Of a DNA stretch of 64,000 nt, positions 32,058 through 42,109 are shown piece after piece. The DNA is taken from the NCBI RefSeq assembly GCF_024582815.1, contig NZ_CP102099.1:496001-560000 (forward strand), in the 5' to 3' direction. The notes under the pieces were generated by a model. The model was not told the DNA's origin, did no database searches, and saw only the letters and a list, made by a program, of their open reading frames with translations. A program made the position numbers and the translations under genes. Source of the DNA: Acinetobacter colistiniresistens (GTDB lineage Bacteria; Pseudomonadota; Gammaproteobacteria; Pseudomonadales; Moraxellaceae). How positions within the stretch are numbered: position 1 is the stretch's first letter; each line of letters opens with the position of its first letter.

Positions 32058-32975
32058 TTAAGGAATAAAGGATTTCCCCAATGATGCAGGTAAGTTCATT
32101 TGCAATAGTTTTTTATCACGTGAAATCAGGACCAGAACTAAAATCGTAGCCACATACGGCAACGCAGCCAGTAATTCGACAGGCAGATCCAGACCCAACG
32201 CTTGCGCATGGAATTGTAAAATGGTGACACCACCAAATAAATAAGCACCGACTATCAATCGTGCAGGTTTCCAGACCGCAAATACCACTAGTGCAATGGC
32301 AATCCAACCACGGCCTGCTACCATATTTTCAACCCATAATGGCGTATATACCGTTGATAAAAATGCCCCACCTATTCCAGCCATTGCTCCACCGAACAAC
32401 ACGGCACCATAACGAATCAACAGTACTGGATAACCCATGGCATGTCCTGACTCTGGTGACTCGCCCACCGCTTTAAGCAATAAACCCAGCTTGGTTTTTG
32501 CCAAAATCCACCAAATGACAAAAAAAGATAAAATCGATAAATACACCACATAATTTTGGTGAAATAAAATCGGCCCAATAAAAGGGATCTCCGACAGGAC
32601 GGGAATATCCAGTGCCTTTAACCCCTCCAAACTGTTACTGACAAAATGTTGCCCCACGAAAGCGGATAACCCTACACCGAAAATGGTTAATGCAAGCCCA
32701 CATGCAGCCTGATTAGCTGCGAGCGAAAGGGCCAAAATTGCAAAAATGAGTGCAGCACTCGCACCTGCAATGGCCCCTGCCAAAAGTCCTGACGCAGGCC
32801 CTAGACCTGTGCTTGCACAAAAAGCAAAACCCGCAATGGCACCAATCAACATCATGCCTTCAACACCCAGATTAATCACCCCTGTTCGCTCTGCAACCAA
32901 CTCACCCATTCCTGCAAAAATCAGGGGTGTGCCTGCGGCTAGAGTACCCGCCAAAATTGGAACTAAATCAATCAT
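32058..32975 (-). CDS. ABC transporter permease, BMP/nucleoside type (NupQ/YufQ-like)
   Basis: A 305-residue inner-membrane permease with 8-9 helices. GVINLGVEGMMLIGAIAGF is the family signature, and ESPESGHAMGYPVLLIRYGAVLFGGAMAGIGGAFLS is the cytoplasmic coupling loop (E-x3-A-x-G region). It is the second of two different permeases of a branched-chain/ribose-type importer whose binding protein is the BMP-family protein at 40931. The related YufNOPQ and PnrABCDE systems import nucleosides or purines. It lies 9 bp after the other permease gene. Confidence 0.88.
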   Translation of the reverse strand: MIDLVPILAGTLAAGTPLIFAGMGELVAERTGVINLGVEGMMLIGAIAGFAFCASTGLGPASGLLAGAIAGASAALIFAILALSLAANQAACGLALTIFGVGLSAFVGQHFVSNSLEGLKALDIPVLSEIPFIGPILFHQNYVVYLSILSFFVIWWILAKTKLGLLLKAVGESPESGHAMGYPVLLIRYGAVLFGGAMAGIGGAFLSTVYTPLWVENMVAGRGWIAIALVVFAVWKPARLIVGAYLFGGVTILQFHAQALGLDLPVELLAALPYVATILVLVLISRDKKLLQMNLPASLGKSFIP

Positions 32976-32984
32976 GTCTAACTC

Positions 32985-34091
32985 CTAAGCTGTTTCAATG
33001 GATGCAATCGATGATGTATGCTTTTTCATTGTTTCAGACCTGCCAAACCGATAGCGATTTTCGATGAAAGCATCCGCAGCCAATAAGAAAAACAACAACA
33101 TTCCCTGAAATAATCCTGTAATTGCCGCAGGAAGCTGTAGATTTAGCTGTGCGGTTTCTCCACCAATGTAGAGCAAGGCCATCAAAAATCCTGACAAAAC
33201 AATCCCGATCGGGTTTAATCGTCCCACATACGCCACAATAATTGCGGCATAACCATAACCTGGGGAAATATTTGGATTGAGTTGTCCAACCGGACCTGCA
33301 ACCTCACCAATGCCTGCAATACCTGCCATAAAACCTGAAATCATAAGACTAAACCAGATAGCCTGCTTTGCAGAAAACCCCGCGTAGCGTGCAGCATCAG
33401 GTGCTTGACCACCGACTTCAAGCTGATATGCAAGAAAACTGCGTTTACTAAACAGCCAGAATGCCAACACTGCAAAAATGGTCACCCCAATCACAGCATT
33501 GATTCGTGTGCCTTCAAATAAAATAGGAAATAAAGTTCCACCGTCGAACATAACCGATTGTGGAAAATTCATGCCTTCAGGATCTTTCCACGGCCCGTTA
33601 ATCAAATACAGTAAAATAAATGTCGCAATATAATTCAGCATTAATGTGGTCAGAGTTTCTTGCGCATTAAAATGGGTTTTTAGTAATGCAGGAATAGCTC
33701 CCCATAAGGCTCCGCCAATTGCACCCGCAATCACCATAGAGGGTAAGACCCAGAATGCGGAGGTTCCCTGACAGGCAATGGCTAAACCACCGCCAAAAAT
33801 TGCCCCCATAATAAGCTGGCCTTCAGCACCGATATTAAAAATACGGGCTTTAAATCCAACAGATAGGCCTAATGCAATTAAAATTAAGGGGCTGGCTTTA
33901 ATAATCAACTCACTCCAGCCATACCAACTGGATAAGGGTTCAATAAAGAACACCTGAAATGCTTCAAGCGGATTTTTGCCTAAAATCATAAATAATAGGC
34001 CACCAATAGAGAATGTTGCCACCAAAGCAATTAAGGGAGAGAGCCACTTCATTAAAATCGATGGATGATCACGCGGTTCGAGTAAATGCAT
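32985..34091 (-). CDS. ABC transporter permease, BMP/nucleoside type (NupP/YufP-like)
   Basis: A 368-residue permease with about nine helices. FKARIFNIGAEGQLIMGAIFGG is the conserved motif of this permease class, and QAPDAARYAGFSAKQAIWFSLMISGFMAGIAG is the coupling loop. A long N-terminal segment (LLEPRDHPSILMKWLSPLIALVATFSIG) precedes the first helices. It pairs with the permease at 32058 and the ATPase at 34120, forming a heterodimeric channel for a purine or nucleoside substrate (inferred). Confidence 0.88.
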   Translation of the reverse strand: MHLLEPRDHPSILMKWLSPLIALVATFSIGGLLFMILGKNPLEAFQVFFIEPLSSWYGWSELIIKASPLILIALGLSVGFKARIFNIGAEGQLIMGAIFGGGLAIACQGTSAFWVLPSMVIAGAIGGALWGAIPALLKTHFNAQETLTTLMLNYIATFILLYLINGPWKDPEGMNFPQSVMFDGGTLFPILFEGTRINAVIGVTIFAVLAFWLFSKRSFLAYQLEVGGQAPDAARYAGFSAKQAIWFSLMISGFMAGIAGIGEVAGPVGQLNPNISPGYGYAAIIVAYVGRLNPIGIVLSGFLMALLYIGGETAQLNLQLPAAITGLFQGMLLFFLLAADAFIENRYRFGRSETMKKHTSSIASIETA

Positions 34092-34119: not shown

Positions 34120-35727
34120 CTAAGCGGATGCGTCTAAAACGCTTGGACTTTGCGATTGCCGATGCAATCCGGACATCATCAAACCAATCGTTTCAGCATT
34201 GGTTTCATTCACAGGTTGAGCTTCACTTAGGCGACCTGCGGCCAAAACAGCAATTCGATCACTGATCTCAAATAATTCTTCCAATTCTTCAGAAATTACA
34301 ATAATGGCGACACCCTGACGCGACAGATCAATTAGTGTTTGACGAACAAAGGCGGCTGCACCGACATCGACCCCCCAAGTGGGTTGGGCCACCAGCATAA
34401 CTTTAGGCTGTTGCAAGATTTCACGACCTACGATGAATTTTTGTAGGTTTCCACCCGACAAAGAACGCGCGACAGCCGCCGTTCCAGAGGCCTTTACCGC
34501 AAATTTCTGCATACAGTCTTGTGCAAAATGACGCGCTTTTTCGTAATTGACCAATCCATAACGCACAAAACCTTGTCGAAATGCGGTCAGTAAAGCATTT
34601 TGAGTTAGACTCATCGCGGGAATAGCGCCTCGTCCCAAACGTTCTTCAGGCACAAAACCAAAACCCAGTGCGCGGCGCTGTCCCGCATTTAAATGGCCGA
34701 TCGCCCGTCCCTCTAACATTACGCAGCCTTTTGCAGTCGTTATTTCGCCAGACAAGGCCGTCAACAGTTCGGCTTGCCCATTTCCTGAAATACCTGCAAT
34801 CCCCAGAATCTCTCCTGTTTTCACACTAAGCTGAATATGTTCGAGCGAGGTTCCAAAAATATCAAGTGCCTGAACATTGAGCTGTTTCACTTCAAATATA
34901 GGCTTACTCTCGCCTACATAAACAGGATGTTCATAAGCAGGAAGATCACGCCCAATCATCATCTTAGCCAGACTCGCGGTACTTTCCTGTTTAGGAATAG
35001 CAGTTCCTGTCACGGTTCCACCCCGTAAAATAGTAGCGCAATCACATAAGCTCTGTATCTCATGGAGTTTATGACTGATATATAAAATTGATACCCCTTC
35101 ACTGGCTAAACGGCGTAACGTTTCAAACAAGATTAATACCGCTTGAGGCGTGAGTACCGAAGTAGGTTCATCTAAAATTAACAATGATGGGTTTTGCAAT
35201 AAACAACGTACAATTTCAACACGTTGTCGCTCTCCAACCGATAAACTATAAACGGTTCTTTTCGGATCAATGGGCAATCCATACTTTTCAGAGACTGCAA
35301 TGACGCGCTTGGATAATACGTTTAGATCAAATTTTTCATCCAGACTCAAGGCAATATTTTCCACTACCGTCAACGTTTCAAATAAAGAAAAATGTTGATA
35401 CACCATACCGATTCCCAAACGTCGGGCCGCAGCAGGACTTTCGATCGTGACAGAGCGACCATTCCAGACAATTTCTCCTTCATCAGCCTTGACTGCCCCA
35501 TAAATAATTTTCATCAGGGTACTTTTGCCTGCCCCGTTTTCACCCAATACTGCATGAATTTCACCGGGTGCGACCTGTAAATGAATATGGTCATTGGCCA
35601 CTAAACTGCCATACTGTTTCGTTATATTGATTAACTCCAGACGATTTTTCTGCAAGATAGGTGCAGGTCTGCTGGTACTCATATTCAAGTCTGGATTAAC
35701 AGAGATTTTATCGGTCGGTAAAGCCAT
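34120..35727 (-). CDS. ABC transporter ATP-binding protein with two ABC domains (NupO/YufO-like)
   Basis: A 535-residue tandem ATPase. The first domain (about residues 28-260) is canonical: GENGAGKSTLMK (Walker A), LSVGERQRVEIVR (signature), LLILDEPTSVL (Walker B). The second domain (about 280-515) has a degenerate Walker A (GISGNGQAELL, no GKS/T) and the signature LSGGNLQKFIVGRE, as in sugar/nucleoside ABC2 proteins of this class, where only one site hydrolyses ATP. The order ATPase-permease-permease is the same as yufOPQ. It precedes the permease gene by 28 bp. Confidence 0.92.
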   Translation of the reverse strand: MALPTDKISVNPDLNMSTSRPAPILQKNRLELINITKQYGSLVANDHIHLQVAPGEIHAVLGENGAGKSTLMKIIYGAVKADEGEIVWNGRSVTIESPAAARRLGIGMVYQHFSLFETLTVVENIALSLDEKFDLNVLSKRVIAVSEKYGLPIDPKRTVYSLSVGERQRVEIVRCLLQNPSLLILDEPTSVLTPQAVLILFETLRRLASEGVSILYISHKLHEIQSLCDCATILRGGTVTGTAIPKQESTASLAKMMIGRDLPAYEHPVYVGESKPIFEVKQLNVQALDIFGTSLEHIQLSVKTGEILGIAGISGNGQAELLTALSGEITTAKGCVMLEGRAIGHLNAGQRRALGFGFVPEERLGRGAIPAMSLTQNALLTAFRQGFVRYGLVNYEKARHFAQDCMQKFAVKASGTAAVARSLSGGNLQKFIVGREILQQPKVMLVAQPTWGVDVGAAAFVRQTLIDLSRQGVAIIVISEELEELFEISDRIAVLAAGRLSEAQPVNETNAETIGLMMSGLHRQSQSPSVLDASA

Positions 35728-35825: not shown

Positions 35826-36332
35826 TTAGTGACTTAATTCAGTCCAAAACCCTTGATGTGCTTGCGCTGCTTCTTCACTCAAACACGGCCCAATGACCCT
35901 GATTTCGCGTTGTCCACTAGCAAATACCTGACGACAAGGTAAAGATAATGTCGGGTTTTCTGGGTGATTCCCTGTAATTGCGAGGAGTTGTGTTTCACTC
36001 ATGCCATAGACGACCCGACCAATGCCGGTCCAATAAATCGCACCAGAACACATCGCACAGGGTTCAGCATTGGTATATAAAGTACAGTTACGCAACTGTT
36101 CCAATGACAAAAGTCGTGCGGCCTGCCCTGCTGCAACAGTTTCAGCATGACGGGTGGGATCACCCGTCGGAGGTAATGAATTATTGCCTGCCTGAGTGAC
36201 AACCTCGCCTAGTGCATTCACCACAATTGCAGCAAAGGGATGCAAGCCTTGCAATTTAGTTTGTTCTGCCAATTCAAACGTTTTTCTTAGAAAAAATAGA
36301 TCTTGCGCTGTTGCCTGATCATTTAATGTCAT
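35826..36332 (-). CDS. Guanine-deaminase-like nucleoside/nucleobase deaminase
   Basis: A 168-residue zinc deaminase of the CDA/GDA fold. Zinc ligands are His62 (RHAETVAAG, with the catalytic Glu64) and Cys92/Cys95 (PCAMCSGAIYW). The N-terminal KLQGLHPFAAIVV, the N-N-S-L-P-P-T-G-D-P-T-RHAE run and GRVVYGMSETQL follow the short guanine-deaminase (GuaD of Bacillus) and related nucleoside deaminases rather than tRNA adenosine deaminase TadA, which is basic. It is encoded between the ABC ATPase gene and the Tsx-like porin gene. A purine base or a modified purine as substrate is inferred from that context. Confidence 0.8.
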   Translation of the reverse strand: MTLNDQATAQDLFFLRKTFELAEQTKLQGLHPFAAIVVNALGEVVTQAGNNSLPPTGDPTRHAETVAAGQAARLLSLEQLRNCTLYTNAEPCAMCSGAIYWTGIGRVVYGMSETQLLAITGNHPENPTLSLPCRQVFASGQREIRVIGPCLSEEAAQAHQGFWTELSH

Positions 36333-36429: not shown

Positions 36430-37338
36430 TTAAAAATGATAGTCAACCCGAACCATTGGTGTGCTGGCCGTGGCACCTTTTCCTGCAAAGCCATCGCTGT
36501 CACTGCCAAATTTATTTTTCCAATACTCATAGCCTGCGCCTGCGCGTAACTTGCTGCCTTTTAACCCAATAACTGGGCCCAAGTCATACATCACACTTAC
36601 ATCAATATGGGTTTCAGCTTTTGTATCACCACCAGACTCATTTTTTCCTTTTGAATCAATCCAAAGTGCATATCCTTCAAAAGATAGCGGTGTTTTTCCA
36701 ATTGGAATGCCCCATGTAAACTGTGCAGCAGCATGAGTGTCATAGGTGTAACGCCCCGAAGAATACCCAAATCGCGGGGTATCTGATGAAGGATCATTAC
36801 TTTCAAATAATGCCAATACGCTAAAATCTAGAAAACCAGGCACATCAAATTGAATAGTTGGCCCTACGACCCACATACGTTTTTTTGAACCATAACTATC
36901 ATTTTTAGTGTTCCAGTCCAGCCCCAATGTTAAACCTGCACCACGAATGTAACCTGGTACAGATAAATTTGTTTTAGTAATGGCGCCAACATCCAGATAA
37001 CGACGAATGACCACATAGGCTTCCTGAGTTCCTTTAGCATTGGATTGAGTGCTATTCGGTTCATCATCTGACTGAAGCAAATCGACATTAAAGAAATTTG
37101 AACCATACTTATCACCACTGGCATGGGTCAGATTAAAAATTTGTTTGGTGATATCGGTACGACTGCCATCTGAATCATTTTTATACGGTTCTGCAAATTG
37201 TGATCCGTAACGCCATCCAATAGAGGTATCGCTCCATGTGGAAGCCTGTACAGATTGCATGGTTCCAATTCCCCCCAGAATAGTAGCCATAGCAGTCATT
37301 AGCGTTTTTAATGCATTCTCTTGTTGGAATACCTTCAT
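36430..37338 (-). CDS. Tsx-like nucleoside-specific outer-membrane channel
   Basis: A 302-residue outer-membrane protein with a signal peptide (about residues 1-32, ending SVQA) and a predicted 12-strand barrel ending in PMVRVDYHF with the terminal Phe. STWSDTSIGWRYGSQFAEPY, FNLTHASGDKYGSNFFNVDLLQSDD and GAGYEYWKNKFGSD follow the Tsx/OmpK family. Tsx lets nucleosides cross the outer membrane. It is first in the unit Tsx-deaminase-ABC and fits nucleoside or purine uptake. Confidence 0.8.
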   Translation of the reverse strand: MKVFQQENALKTLMTAMATILGGIGTMQSVQASTWSDTSIGWRYGSQFAEPYKNDSDGSRTDITKQIFNLTHASGDKYGSNFFNVDLLQSDDEPNSTQSNAKGTQEAYVVIRRYLDVGAITKTNLSVPGYIRGAGLTLGLDWNTKNDSYGSKKRMWVVGPTIQFDVPGFLDFSVLALFESNDPSSDTPRFGYSSGRYTYDTHAAAQFTWGIPIGKTPLSFEGYALWIDSKGKNESGGDTKAETHIDVSVMYDLGPVIGLKGSKLRAGAGYEYWKNKFGSDSDGFAGKGATASTPMVRVDYHF

Positions 37339-37650: not shown

Positions 37651-38616
37651 TTAATTGACCACATGACTATCGTTTCTCAGAACCGAAATCACCAACTCTC
37701 TGAACCAGCGAAACTCAGGAGAACGATGCTGACGTTCATGCCAAAGTAGATAATAGGAAATTTTGGGAAACTGGATTGGCGCATCGGAAATAGTCAAAGG
37801 CAATAATGCACTATAATGGCGAGAAAATGAGCGCGGCGCAGAAAAAATCGCGTCAAGTTGTAGCAGCATATAAGGAATCATTCCAAAGTACGGAATAAAT
37901 GCCACAATATTACGTTTTAGGCGTTCTTTGGATAAATGTAAATCGATAACTCCACGTTGCCCAACGGTATAAGGTGTTGGAGCAATATGATCAGCATTAA
38001 GATAATCATCCATCGACAAGGTCTTATGCGCCAGAGGATGTGACTTACGCAGCAAACAGACCACTTCATCCTCGAACAATGGAGCAAGCCTTAAATATTC
38101 AGGAGGCTGTGGCCAGTTACCAATCACCGCATCGTACATACCACTTTCCAATGCGTGTGCATAATCTACATTATGTCCCATGGAATGCATGATGACCGTG
38201 CAATGGGGTGCTTCTACATGAATCCTGCGAAGAATTTCACCAATCGCGATGGGGTTTAAATAGTCCGATGCTGCCAGATTAAATATCTGACGTGATTGTG
38301 CCGGATCAAAATTAACTTGTTGGGTGGCAATTAATTCAAGCTGGCTTAATACCTGACTCACTGGCTCGAGTAAGGATAAACCACGTTCAGTAGGGGTCAT
38401 GCCATTGCGGCTACGCACCAAAAGCTGATCACCTGTGATTTCCCTTAATTTTTTTAAAGCGGTACTAATGGCCGGTTGTGATTGATTTAGTCGTTTGGCT
38501 GCATTAGAGACACTTTTTTCTGTTAAAAGCATATATAAAACTTGCAGCAAATGTGCATCTAATGCTTCCCATTTATTTGTAGGATGAATCACCAATCTGT
38601 CCTTATCTAAGATCAC
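37651..38616 (-). CDS. LysR-family transcriptional regulator
   Basis: A 321-residue regulator. The winged HTH at about residues 20-80 reads LLQVLYMLLTEKSVSNAAKRLNQSQPAISTALKKLRE. The effector domain starts around residue 105 (QIFNLAASDYLNPIAIGEILRRI), in the NahR/NodD/LinR style that often responds to aromatic or heterocyclic compounds. It is encoded in line with the oxygenase genes rather than divergently, 94 bp after the GST-like gene, and likely controls this locus. Confidence 0.9.
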   Translation of the reverse strand: MILDKDRLVIHPTNKWEALDAHLLQVLYMLLTEKSVSNAAKRLNQSQPAISTALKKLREITGDQLLVRSRNGMTPTERGLSLLEPVSQVLSQLELIATQQVNFDPAQSRQIFNLAASDYLNPIAIGEILRRIHVEAPHCTVIMHSMGHNVDYAHALESGMYDAVIGNWPQPPEYLRLAPLFEDEVVCLLRKSHPLAHKTLSMDDYLNADHIAPTPYTVGQRGVIDLHLSKERLKRNIVAFIPYFGMIPYMLLQLDAIFSAPRSFSRHYSALLPLTISDAPIQFPKISYYLLWHERQHRSPEFRWFRELVISVLRNDSHVVN

Positions 38617-38710: not shown

Positions 38711-39328
38711 TCAGTTGATAGCCAATAAACCAGCCATTGGAATAAATTTTGGTTGATGGCGAATATGATTGATCCAACGACGAATGTGTAAAAAAGGCAG
38801 CAAACTTACACCCGCATCCCAAGCCAATGCAACTTGAGGAAATACAATCAGGTCCGCGGCCGTCAGTTGCCCACCCAATAAATAACGGTGTCCGCAAATG
38901 GTTTGCTCACATAAATGATCATCCAGCTCACGGAACTGCTGCGCTGCCTGCTGAAGTAATCTTTTCTCATCTGTCAAAAATTGATCCATTGCCAGACTGG
39001 CCTGACGTAATTGTCCCAAACTCAGTTTGAGTTTCTCATTAAAATCATGCCACTCCTGTATTTGCGATGACAAATAAACTGGTATCCATTGAGATTGTGT
39101 TCCTGTTAATTCAATTAAATATTGAAAGATAAACATCAGCCCAGATATGTTTGAAGAAGAATCTAATAAAACTGGCGATTCAAATTGATTATCGAACTGT
39201 TCAACATCTGCATATACAGACTGGTAAGGAAGTTGTAAAAACTCAAGTAACAAACGTACGCTATAGCAATCTGTCGATAATGGATCATCGGCAAAATTTA
39301 GAGGCAATGTTGATAGATTCACGTTCAT
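38711..39328 (-). CDS. GST-like protein in the split Rieske oxygenase operon
   Basis: A 205-residue protein with a two-part glutathione-transferase layout. A thioredoxin-like N-terminal half (STDCYSVRLLLEFLQLPYQSVYADVEQFDNQ; the usual catalytic Ser/Tyr/Cys is not obvious) is followed by an all-helical C-terminal half with GHRYLLGGQLTAADLIVFPQVALAWDAG, the N-capping box and D of the GST C-domain. The start overlaps the stop of the catalytic oxygenase gene by 4 nt (ATGA), so the two are translationally coupled. In caffeine degradation a GST-like subunit, NdmE, is a structural partner of NdmC and NdmD. By analogy this may be a scaffold rather than an enzyme. Confidence 0.8.
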   Translation of the reverse strand: MNVNLSTLPLNFADDPLSTDCYSVRLLLEFLQLPYQSVYADVEQFDNQFESPVLLDSSSNISGLMFIFQYLIELTGTQSQWIPVYLSSQIQEWHDFNEKLKLSLGQLRQASLAMDQFLTDEKRLLQQAAQQFRELDDHLCEQTICGHRYLLGGQLTAADLIVFPQVALAWDAGVSLLPFLHIRRWINHIRHQPKFIPMAGLLAIN

Positions 39329-40239
39329 ACCACTTGCTCCGTTTGTATGCTTTTATGTACTCCATAGCTCCAATTCTTGGTGATCAGCCATTTGCGATAT
39401 GCGGTCGCCAGTGCATCAGCTTTCGTCGGAATTTCCAGTTTGTCCAAAGGAAGTTTTAAAGGCACATGATTTTCCAGAATCGGTTTGTCCTGAGTAAAAA
39501 TTTTCTGCTGAAATAAAACCATATCGGTCATGCTGCTCGTCTGATCATCCAAAATCATCAGCAAATGCGCCCGAATATGAGTTTCACTCAGGGGTTGAAT
39601 AAAAAGACACACTACATCAGCAGGAATAATCCCCTTAGCCGCAGTATTCACTTTATATAAAATCGCGTTTAAGGGGGAAGCAACGCGATAGATATATTCA
39701 GTTTCCTGCGGCTGGGGTGAACTCGGTGCGGCAAGTGGTTGCGTAAAAAAACACTCCGTTGCCCAGATTTCATCGACATCTTCACGCCATTCAACGTGAT
39801 AGGGTTTGACTGCAGTTTCTGGTTCAGCTCCCAAAATACCAGTATGGACATACGGAAAATGTGCCATATCCAGAAAATTTTCTATGCCACGTAGTGGTGA
39901 AGTGCGTACCCCGTAAGCACCACACGGCACACGGCGTGCCTCTACAACCTCATATTCATCAAGCTGAAATAATGGTTTTTTTTCAGTTCCGACACATAAC
40001 CATACAAACCCAAAAGCCACTTGCACAGCCAAATTCAACATGTCTACATCGAGTGAATCGAACTTCACCTGATAAACATGGACATCATTGATGATATCTC
40101 GATGGATCGTTAAAATTTGTCCATCCAGACATGTTTTTATCTGCTGGCACCGAACGAATTCCTGCTCTGACGCAACCACAATCCATTCCCCCATCAAACT
40201 AGATGAAATCATCTGCGAATACTGCTGTGTATTAGGCAT
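39325..40239 (-). CDS. Rieske-type oxygenase catalytic subunit lacking the Rieske cluster
   Basis: A 304-residue protein with the mononuclear iron motif of Rieske oxygenases: IENFLDMAHFPYVHTG, giving Asp124, His127 and His132 in the D-x2-H-x4-H pattern. The N-terminal ~95 residues look like a shrunken Rieske domain (GEWIVVASEQEF at the start and FGFVWLCVG near the end, as in GxIWxxxG), but the CxH and CxxH cluster ligands are absent. The protein therefore needs electrons from another Rieske protein, presumably the product of the upstream gene, which overlaps by 8 nt. NdmC of the N7-demethylase complex has the same defect. Substrate unknown; a methylated or oxidisable purine is inferred from the transport genes. 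Confidence 0.82.
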   Translation of the reverse strand: MPNTQQYSQMISSSLMGEWIVVASEQEFVRCQQIKTCLDGQILTIHRDIINDVHVYQVKFDSLDVDMLNLAVQVAFGFVWLCVGTEKKPLFQLDEYEVVEARRVPCGAYGVRTSPLRGIENFLDMAHFPYVHTGILGAEPETAVKPYHVEWREDVDEIWATECFFTQPLAAPSSPQPQETEYIYRVASPLNAILYKVNTAAKGIIPADVVCLFIQPLSETHIRAHLLMILDDQTSSMTDMVLFQQKIFTQDKPILENHVPLKLPLDKLEIPTKADALATAYRKWLITKNWSYGVHKSIQTEQVV

Positions 40240-40888
40240 GGCTGAGTTTCTCCGACTCCAGATTTTCTCGCATCTGTCTTAATAAAGGATAACATTGAGT
40301 AGGCTTTGCGCTTTGTAATAGCATGGCATGTACCGTTACAACATTGGTCTGTGTCGGCGTGAGATAAATACGCAATCTACGATCTGCTGCATCATCTCGC
40401 CAACTCAATCCATTATGCATAGCGCATTCAGTCAAACCCGCTTCCAATAAATAATCTTGTACTTGAGGGAGTGTGACCGAGATAGTGACAGACCCTGCAT
40501 AGACTAATTGTATTTCCTCAAATAAAGGATCAATGTCAGGTAAAGCATCTTCGCCATACCAGATCAGGCCTGAATTTTCCATGACTGCATAAGATCTTGC
40601 ACATACACTTTTCGGTGCGCGCTGTTCAGGCTGAGCAGGAATACGCTGACAATGCCCATCTTCTGCGGCAAACTGCCAACCGTGATAGGCACAGACCAGA
40701 CTTTCACCCTGTACCTGCCCCAAACTTAAACGCACACTACGATGTGGACAACGGTTTTCCCAGATTTGAACATGACCCTGCATGGAACGCCAGACAGCAA
40801 CATCTTTCCCCCTCACCAGAACCTGCTCTACCTCACCTGTTTCGATCAGTATAGAAGGGACTAACGGAATCCATTGACCTGTAATCAT
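40232..40888 (-). CDS. Free-standing Rieske [2Fe-2S] protein with vestigial oxygenase domain
   Basis: A 218-residue protein starting at the ATG at 40888, which has GAGG 9 nt upstream; an ATG two codons earlier and a TTG further up are too close to it. The Rieske domain is intact: RCPHRSVRLS and VCAYHGWQFA give the CxH-x16-CxxH ligands, followed by GHCQRIPAQP and GLIWYGED. After it the usual catalytic domain is reduced to about 100 residues and has no D-x2-H-x4-H motif. One stretch (RRLRIYLTPTQTNVVTVHAMLL) still resembles a beta strand pair of the catalytic domain in the neighbouring subunit (CLFIQPLSETHIRAHLLMIL). It should be the electron-donor subunit of the pair. Confidence 0.85.
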   Translation of the reverse strand: MITGQWIPLVPSILIETGEVEQVLVRGKDVAVWRSMQGHVQIWENRCPHRSVRLSLGQVQGESLVCAYHGWQFAAEDGHCQRIPAQPEQRAPKSVCARSYAVMENSGLIWYGEDALPDIDPLFEEIQLVYAGSVTISVTLPQVQDYLLEAGLTECAMHNGLSWRDDAADRRLRIYLTPTQTNVVTVHAMLLQSAKPTQCYPLLRQMRENLESEKLSHA

Positions 40889-40930: not shown

Positions 40931-42109
40931 TTATTTTGGCAATACACCTTGCACGCCTTGTACATAGAAGTTCATTTTGTCGAGTTGCGCTTCGGTATAA
41001 GCACTGCCCGCCTTAACAAATTCTTTACCGGCCTGTGTATATAGAGGGCCAGCAAATGGATTCAATTTGCCTGCTTTAATCGCATCACGACGAGCTAATA
41101 CCATCTTTTTGGCATCCGCAGAGACCGCTGTGCCAATATTTTCAACATTGATCGTGCCTTCTTTTACACCAGAGTAGATCGGTGCGTTGCTCCATTTTTT
41201 CGCAGCAACATCTTTCAGCACTTTGTCGTAAATCGGATCCCAATGTAGTACCGCAGCACCCAATTGCGCATCGCCACCAAATTTACCCATATCTGAGTTC
41301 CAACCTAAGCCCCAAACACCTTTTTGTTTGGCTGCCTGAACAACTGCTGGCGAATCAGTATTTTGTAATAACACATCACAACCTTGTGAAATCAAAGCCA
41401 ATGCAGCATCACGTTCTTTACCCGGATCAAACCATGAACTCACCCAAACCACCTGTGTCGTGATTTTTGGATTAACACTACGCGCGCCAATGGTAAAAGC
41501 ATTGATATTACGCACTACTTCTGGAATGGGGTAAGAACCGACAAATCCAATTTTATTGGTCTTACTTTTGCTTCCTGCCAATACACCCAGTAAATAAGCC
41601 CCTTGATAGGTACGAATATTATAGTTGCCCATATTCTTGCCAGACTTATAGCCCGTCGCATGCATAAATACGGTATTCGGATAAGTACGTGAAACTTTTT
41701 CCATCGCATTCATATAGCCAAATGAAGTTCCGAAGATCACTTTATTGCCTTGCTGCGCCAGATTACGAAATACTCGCTCTGCATCTCCCGTTTCAGGCAC
41801 GTTGGCAACAAAGGTGGTTTTTACTGCTCCTTTCAGATCTTTTTCAGTGCGAATGCGCGATTGATCATGTGCATATGTCCAGCCATGATCACCTGGCGGA
41901 CCAATATAAACAAAGGCTGCTTTGAGTGGATCAGCCGCATAAGCTGTAGTCAGCATTGTTGCTGTTGTTGAAACAGCCCCTACGGTGAGTAAACCACTAC
42001 TGGCCGCACGAAATGCCGTCTTTTTAAATTTTGAGAATAATTTTGAAAATAATCCCTGCGGGCTTTGATCGCGTAACGTATTTGGATTTGTGTTCATTTC
42101 AATAGACAT
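40931..42109 (-). CDS. BMP-family ABC transporter substrate-binding protein (purine/nucleoside type)
   Basis: A 392-residue binding protein with a long signal region (about residues 1-58, basic stretch SKLFSKFKKTAFRAAS then TTAYAADP). The mature fold is PnrA/Med-like: KAAFVYIGPPGDHGWTYAHDQSR at the start, VIFGTSFGYMNAMEKVSRTYP, IRTYQGAYLLGVLAGSKSKTNKIGFVGSYPIPEVVRNINAFTIGAR, and DVLLQNTDSPAVVQAAKQKGVWGLGWN. Proteins of this family bind nucleosides or purine bases. GGGG precedes the ATG at 42109. It is the first gene of the operon that continues with the Rieske genes. Its membrane partners are encoded at 32058-35727, so the transport system flanks the oxygenase. Confidence 0.9.
   Translation of the reverse strand: MSIEMNTNPNTLRDQSPQGLFSKLFSKFKKTAFRAASSGLLTVGAVSTTATMLTTAYAADPLKAAFVYIGPPGDHGWTYAHDQSRIRTEKDLKGAVKTTFVANVPETGDAERVFRNLAQQGNKVIFGTSFGYMNAMEKVSRTYPNTVFMHATGYKSGKNMGNYNIRTYQGAYLLGVLAGSKSKTNKIGFVGSYPIPEVVRNINAFTIGARSVNPKITTQVVWVSSWFDPGKERDAALALISQGCDVLLQNTDSPAVVQAAKQKGVWGLGWNSDMGKFGGDAQLGAAVLHWDPIYDKVLKDVAAKKWSNAPIYSGVKEGTINVENIGTAVSADAKKMVLARRDAIKAGKLNPFAGPLYTQAGKEFVKAGSAYTEAQLDKMNFYVQGVQGVLPK

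Follow-up and report, generated by a model that had tools for sequence, protein, structure and literature searches.

Three overlapping genes on the minus strand of a 64,000-nucleotide stretch of Acinetobacter colistiniresistens DNA (assembly GCF_024582815.1, contig NZ_CP102099.1, positions 496,001 to 560,000; hereafter the window) encode a Rieske oxygenase that is divided between two polypeptides and accompanied by a third protein resembling glutathione S-transferases (GST). The split and the pairing of its two halves, here called RSK and CAT, are well supported. As a whole, the trio is best explained as a Rieske N-demethylase that works in trans and acts on methylated purines, likely at N7 (probability approx. 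0.6), with a putative substrate, complex geometry and reductase. RSK and CAT overlap by 8 nt, CAT and the GST-like gene by 4 nt. The genes and their metal-site residues are:

40232-40888, minus strand: RSK, free-standing Rieske subunit, 218 amino acids (Pfam Rieske, 9.6e-20)
39325-40239, minus strand: CAT, NdmC-type catalytic subunit, 304 amino acids (Pfam VanA_C, 2.7e-19)
38711-39328, minus strand: GST-like subunit of the NdmE type, 205 amino acids (Pfam GST_C_2, 6.6e-6)
40682-40750, minus strand: Rieske ligands C47, H49, C66 and H69 of RSK
39844-39870, minus strand: D124-x2-H127-x4-H132 of CAT, the Asp presumably bridging and the two His presumably binding the iron
39487-39489, minus strand: D251 of CAT, aligned with an Asp of SxtDIOX and presumably the third ligand of the iron

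RSK consists of a Rieske domain followed by a shrunken catalytic (helix-grip) domain without ligands, while CAT combines a catalytic domain with a Rieske-like domain that has no cluster ligands. The four cluster ligands of RSK were invariant across 106 chosen aligned RSK-type rows (the window plus 58 rows from loci and 47 from the database), in which H187 and R207 of the C-terminal domain were near-invariant. Among 79 chosen CAT-type rows (the window, 43 locus and 35 database rows), the D-x2-H-x4-H motif and the distal D251 were invariant; the roles of D124, H127 and H132 are those that we assume from the family. The complementary loss proposed in the first-pass annotation, with the cluster ligands kept by one protein and the iron ligands by the other, was thereby borne out. 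The predicted models of RSK (predicted local distance difference test, pLDDT, 91.6; predicted template modelling score, pTM, 0.88) and CAT (pLDDT 90.1, pTM 0.89) both adopt the overall two-domain fold of Rieske oxygenase alpha subunits. RSK superposes with residues 1-218 on whole oxygenases and CAT on SxtT 1-334. Neither protein carries both metal sites in one chain, as an alpha subunit does, and judging from the models each half corresponds to a complete oxygenase chain that lacks the active part kept by the other. RSK also differs from Rieske ferredoxins, which are single domains of ~100 residues, in its length of 218 residues and in the second folded domain of its model. As it ends there unfused, the free-standing Rieske subunit does represent the distinct architecture that had been anticipated. 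Three start codons are candidates for RSK (TTG 40903, ATG 40894 and ATG 40888). CAT is 100% identical to the CAT of A. colistiniresistens NIPH 2036.

CAT-type matches (E ≤2.2e-101) were found in 20 of 397 proteobacterial genomes, and the same 20 gave RSK-type matches that cover the full model (E ≤3.9e-52), without any RSK-type orphan; no more than six or seven initial candidates per genome were scored in these profile scans. Both genes were neighbours in 19 of the 20 carriers and lay ~7 kb apart in the other (G462). The GST-like gene was located within the cluster in all 20 as well as in the window. Weaker CAT matches in eight genomes of this phylum sample and a weak RSK match in G386 were considered as exceptions, but turned out to be undivided oxygenases. 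In a separate genome scan, the best 80 of at least 560 confirmed relatives were kept. A free RSK was present in 71 of these loci and a fused one in two, and in the remaining seven (L032, L033, L043, L045, L086, L091 and L099) an RSK-type match covering almost the full model lay elsewhere in the genome. The laboratory species Acinetobacter baylyi also carries the trio (L028). The first-pass annotation had named halves that routinely occur apart as an observation that would speak against it; instead, an RSK-type gene accompanied CAT, in the locus or elsewhere in the genome, for 80/80 best loci and in 20/20 phylum-sample carriers. The arrangement is not peculiar to this genome but widespread.

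The 71 free loci comprised 13 with an uninterrupted RSK-CAT-GST run, 52 with an RSK-GST run and CAT elsewhere in the locus, and six that were cut off or arranged otherwise. Where CAT stood apart, the GST-like gene remained beside RSK. Only C-terminal GST domains of its product passed the Pfam cut-off, and the protein likely holds RSK and CAT together. At least two CAT-type genes per single Rieske gene were observed in L095, where the latter is free, and in L105, L149, L151 and L164, where it is fused; such a shared gene suggests that CATs of different substrates are fed by one electron donor. A shortened CAT frame was seen in L154. Three close database matches (P0044, P0127 and P0249), attributed to the palm weevil Rhynchophorus ferrugineus, come from contigs of ~1 kb; they appear to be DNA of the Acinetobacter type within an insect assembly.

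The closest characterised system is NdmCDE. In two papers, NdmC is described as devoid of a Rieske cluster, NdmD as a reductase that begins with a Rieske domain and NdmE as a GST-like structural protein (PMC4408171, PMC10380055). The second of these gives a 3:3:3 complex specific for 7-methylxanthine, in which the N-terminal Rieske domain of NdmD feeds NdmC (PMC10380055). Its structure was still unsolved according to a 2026 report (PMC13237722), and homologous clusters in 18 further organisms are credited to the 2013 primary study in PMC4408171. The N-terminal part of NdmD matches RSK over nearly its full length. On a plasmid of Paraburkholderia caffeinilytica, CAT, a fused RSK-reductase and GST are followed by FrmA and FrmB; the fused protein of 591 residues matches RSK at residues 10-243 and the reductase at 288-591, and the CAT profile matched the NdmC-type protein of this organism with 1e-117. 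From this protein and the descriptions of NdmD it follows that RSK is the free form of the NdmD N-terminus and the trio homologous to NdmCDE. The parallel to NdmC, NdmD and NdmE drawn in the first-pass annotation therefore holds, although "the same logic" was too weak an expression for what is homology.

The phylum-sample carriers comprised 14 free and six fused forms, the latter including L147, whose short fused Rieske-reductase frame of 418 amino acids lacks most of the reductase part. With undivided relatives as outgroup, the fused forms fell into a single clade nested among the free ones, both for RSK (support 100/99; 10 fused among 50 rows) and for CAT (94/88; 14 fused among 54 rows). The careful RSK tree was built from 50 of 104 rows, leaving out the fused L147 and L164. 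Some branches that nest the fused clade have middling support (91/75, 88/77), and the Acinetobacter clade was placed differently in the careful RSK and CAT trees. A quick Rieske tree left the deep order of free and fused forms unresolved; it was made without 12 near-duplicate loci, and L092 and L098, which are in fact fused, were labelled "free" in it. The simplest reading of the trees would be that the free form came first and was fused to a reductase in a single event. The free form is apparently also the commoner one. In the portions of the open-licence literature covered, which did not extend to the 2013 NdmCDE primary paper, no description of free Rieske subunits was found, and nothing was found there on the cluster in rhizobia. 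A 2021 coffee-borer study reports "ndmC", a "ndmD" in a separate cluster and no ndmE for Acinetobacter S40, S54 and S55 (PMC8055839); S54 is identical with our locus L023.

The genes around the trio, all on its strand, are:

40931-42109, minus strand: BMP/PnrA-type ATP-binding cassette (ABC) substrate-binding protein, upstream of RSK (Pfam Bmp, 5.7e-52)
37651-38616, minus strand: LysR-family regulator
36430-37338, minus strand: possible outer-membrane beta-barrel protein (Pfam OMP_b-brl, E 0.19, below the cut-off), which we guess to be a nucleoside channel
35826-36332, minus strand: deaminase of the cytidine deaminase (CDA) fold, likely a guanine deaminase (Pfam dCMP_cyt_deam_1)
34120-35727, minus strand: ABC transporter ATPase (Pfam ABC_tran, 2.5e-50, two stretches)
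32985-34091, minus strand: ABC permease (Pfam BPD_transp_2, 5.3e-42; 48% identity to a permease of the Rhizobium etli cluster)
32058-32975, minus strand: ABC permease (Pfam BPD_transp_2, 1.3e-31; 52% identity to a permease of the R. etli cluster)

The trio is thus flanked by the BMP-type substrate-binding protein and the LysR regulator. The gene order BMP-RSK-CAT-GST is kept in 6 of 119 Acinetobacter genomes, namely, the six with a close CAT, and the LysR gene adjoins the trio in five of them, but was not found in L006. The top solved relative of the deaminase is guanine deaminase 1wkq (8.1e-17), with a narrow lead over CMP/dCMP and tRNA deaminases. On R. etli p42c and R. johnstonii pRL10 the order is RSK-CAT-GST-amidohydrolase-BMP-ABC-permease-permease. 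Neighbours were counted in stretches whose length varied from 5 to 29 kb, and the seven loci without RSK in the stretch are among the 78 genome loci classed as free. At least two BMP-ABC parts were present in 63 of these 78. A guanine-deaminase type gene was found in 47/78 free and 0/12 fused loci (Fisher 6e-5, uncorrected for relatedness and stretch length). NCBIfam cut-offs were passed by representative neighbours for guanine deaminase (L062) and 8-oxoguanine deaminase (L033, L093). FrmA is a formaldehyde-detoxification gene; strong matches adjoined 6/12 fused loci and the free trios of L087, L148 and L152 (1/78 genome and 2/13 phylum loci, counting strong matches only, as four further free genome loci gave weak dehydrogenase matches). 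FrmB was found beside L148, L152, L102 and L146. In the Rieske tree, the RSKs of L148 and L152 fall together with those of Acinetobacter (94/91). Xanthine dehydrogenase occurs in five of six trio-carrying Acinetobacter compared to 9/113 other genomes (Fisher 6e-5, uncorrected for relatedness), the match in carrier G040 being in two pieces. An HpxD-like full-length oxygenase is present in 6/6 carriers, the window's genome included, with at least 77% identity.

In the proposed mechanism, a separate NADH reductase would reduce the RSK cluster, from which the electron would pass to the CAT iron via the conserved Asp of the D-x2-H-x4-H motif. In Rieske oxygenases a distance of ~12 Å separates the cluster of one subunit from the iron of the next, and an acidic residue bridges the two (PMC12445004, PMC7948474). 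CAT keeps this Asp without a cluster of its own, in keeping with a supply of the electron in trans by RSK, and the transfer from RSK to CAT would replace the usual step between trimer subunits. Activated oxygen would then hydroxylate the N-methyl group, which would leave as formaldehyde. The likeliest route is the salvage of N7-methylguanine, which may be imported by the BMP-type ABC system and converted to xanthine by demethylation followed or preceded by deamination. Reductase genes adjoin the free trios of L087, L095 and L154. No reductase match was obtained in the window with the queries used, and the nearest reductase relatives in its genome lie elsewhere (40% and 37%).

Several results weigh against this demethylase interpretation. 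CAT stands outside the RSK-GST run in 52/71 free loci, and it is only ~33-51% identical to relatives outside the Acinetobacter-like ones, so that the substrate may differ. As two chain types cannot alternate in a three-membered ring, the geometry must deviate from the usual trimer. Formaldehyde genes are rare beside free trios compared with the fused loci, the CAT tree does not unite L148 and L152 with Acinetobacter, queries with FrmA, FrmB, VanB-type reductase and XdhB gave no match within the window, and no TIGR02965 xanthine dehydrogenase was found in its own genome. 7-Methylguanine is moreover described as a competitive inhibitor of guanine-using reactions in a paper that does not deal with its catabolism (PMC7674942), which argues against deamination as the first step.

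Some of these points would suit a machine of the same split build that removes no methyl group but adds a hydroxyl group to a purine without one (xanthine, hypoxanthine, or at a different ring position), the type of activity commonly ascribed to HpxD. Transport and deaminase neighbours of the purine type fit such an activity, as do the missing TIGR02965 gene and the scarcity of formaldehyde genes. Two Acinetobacter without the trio (L126, L127) possess a similar BMP-ABC cluster with an undivided HpxD-like oxygenase, where HpxO-like and allantoicase-like genes were recognised by eye. A further hydroxylation route would be redundant, however, in carriers of which 5/6 have xanthine dehydrogenase and 6/6 the HpxD-like oxygenase. 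Considering also FrmA beside the three free trios and half of the fused loci, and the N-demethylase activity of the characterised relative NdmCDE (PMC10380055), we regard hydroxylation as rather unlikely. Demethylation of another base or position, e.g. N1-, N2- or N3-methylguanine or methyladenine, is likewise unlikely: the amidohydrolase neighbours do vary between guanine deaminase, 8-oxoguanine deaminase, an adenine-deaminase type and an unnamed type, but the guanine-deaminase type is the commonest deaminase partner of the free loci, and NdmCDE, the sole characterised relative found described, acts at N7 (PMC10380055).

That RSK is an ordinary shuttle ferredoxin, which docks and leaves while CAT is a cluster-less terminal oxygenase that is reduced transiently, is quite improbable. 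The ferredoxins in question have 102-103 residues, while RSK has a C-terminal domain folded like that of an oxygenase in its model, with the near-invariant H187 and R207, and its fused homologue NdmD resides within the 3:3:3 complex (PMC10380055). The loss of one of two metal sites in each protein could also result from decay into two broken, functionless oxygenase copies; this was ruled out for practical purposes by open frames, invariant ligands and strict co-occurrence in the phylum sample.

The demethylase trio may have originated from a single purine-cluster oxygenase. The RSK profile matched eight undivided Rieske oxygenases of 327-387 amino acids (L137-L144) with 6e-33 to 6e-46, and the CAT profile matched the same frames with 8e-57 to 1e-72. 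BMP-transporter genes adjoin all eight, while a ninth (L145) is without them; no GST-like gene was found beside L137-L144 within their 6-7 kb stretches. Weaker matches were given by the HpxD-like L134 (RSK 1e-30, CAT 2e-28) and the NdmA/NdmB-like proteins of L102 (best RSK 2e-32, CAT 1e-21), the lead of L143 and L144 over these being small on the RSK side. The undivided proteins that match both profiles beside BMP genes fit a duplication, itself putative, followed by complementary loss. The extended scenario, in which this gave rise to an obligate two-chain oxygenase for N7-methylguanine salvage across Proteobacteria and NdmCDE arose later by one Rieske-reductase fusion, is tentative and in our estimate falls short of even odds. 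On plasmids of Pseudomonas fulva (L103) and Klebsiella pneumoniae (L104), CAT, a fused Rieske-reductase and GST stand with a TIM-barrel protein and a 2-oxoglutarate-Fe oxygenase, with hpxO additionally in L103; this cluster perhaps belongs to a different purine pathway.

With the two metal sites naturally on separate proteins, electron transfer, substrate gating and the bridging Asp of a Rieske oxygenase would become accessible to experiments in which the proteins are mixed. The split also poses the structural puzzle of how two kinds of subunit relate to a three-membered ring. NdmD would be recast as a likely late fusion. A physiological role in the salvage of methylated nucleobases is offered for a family that has been discussed mainly in caffeine degradation, and many genes of rhizobia and Acinetobacter whose sole annotation is "aromatic ring-hydroxylating dioxygenase" would gain a testable function.

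Compared with known systems, the models of RSK and CAT share their fold with VanA-type alpha subunits such as SxtT/GxtA, NdmA/NdmB and dicamba monooxygenase, which have both metal sites per chain. The HpxD-type full-length oxygenases of Acinetobacter resemble the trio in being Rieske oxygenases of a purine-type cluster beside a BMP transporter, but they are undivided and match the RSK and CAT profiles more weakly. In L137-L144, one frame matches both profiles next to BMP-transporter genes, with both metal sites in one polypeptide. NdmCDE of Pseudomonas putida CBB5 has a Rieske-less catalytic subunit, the cluster on a second protein and a GST-like third protein in common with the trio. It differs in the fusion of the NdmD Rieske part to a reductase, whereas RSK of the window is free with no reductase adjoining, and in the guanine deaminase, which is confined to free loci in this comparison. 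The trio is a variant of the NdmCDE system and not a separate kind of system.
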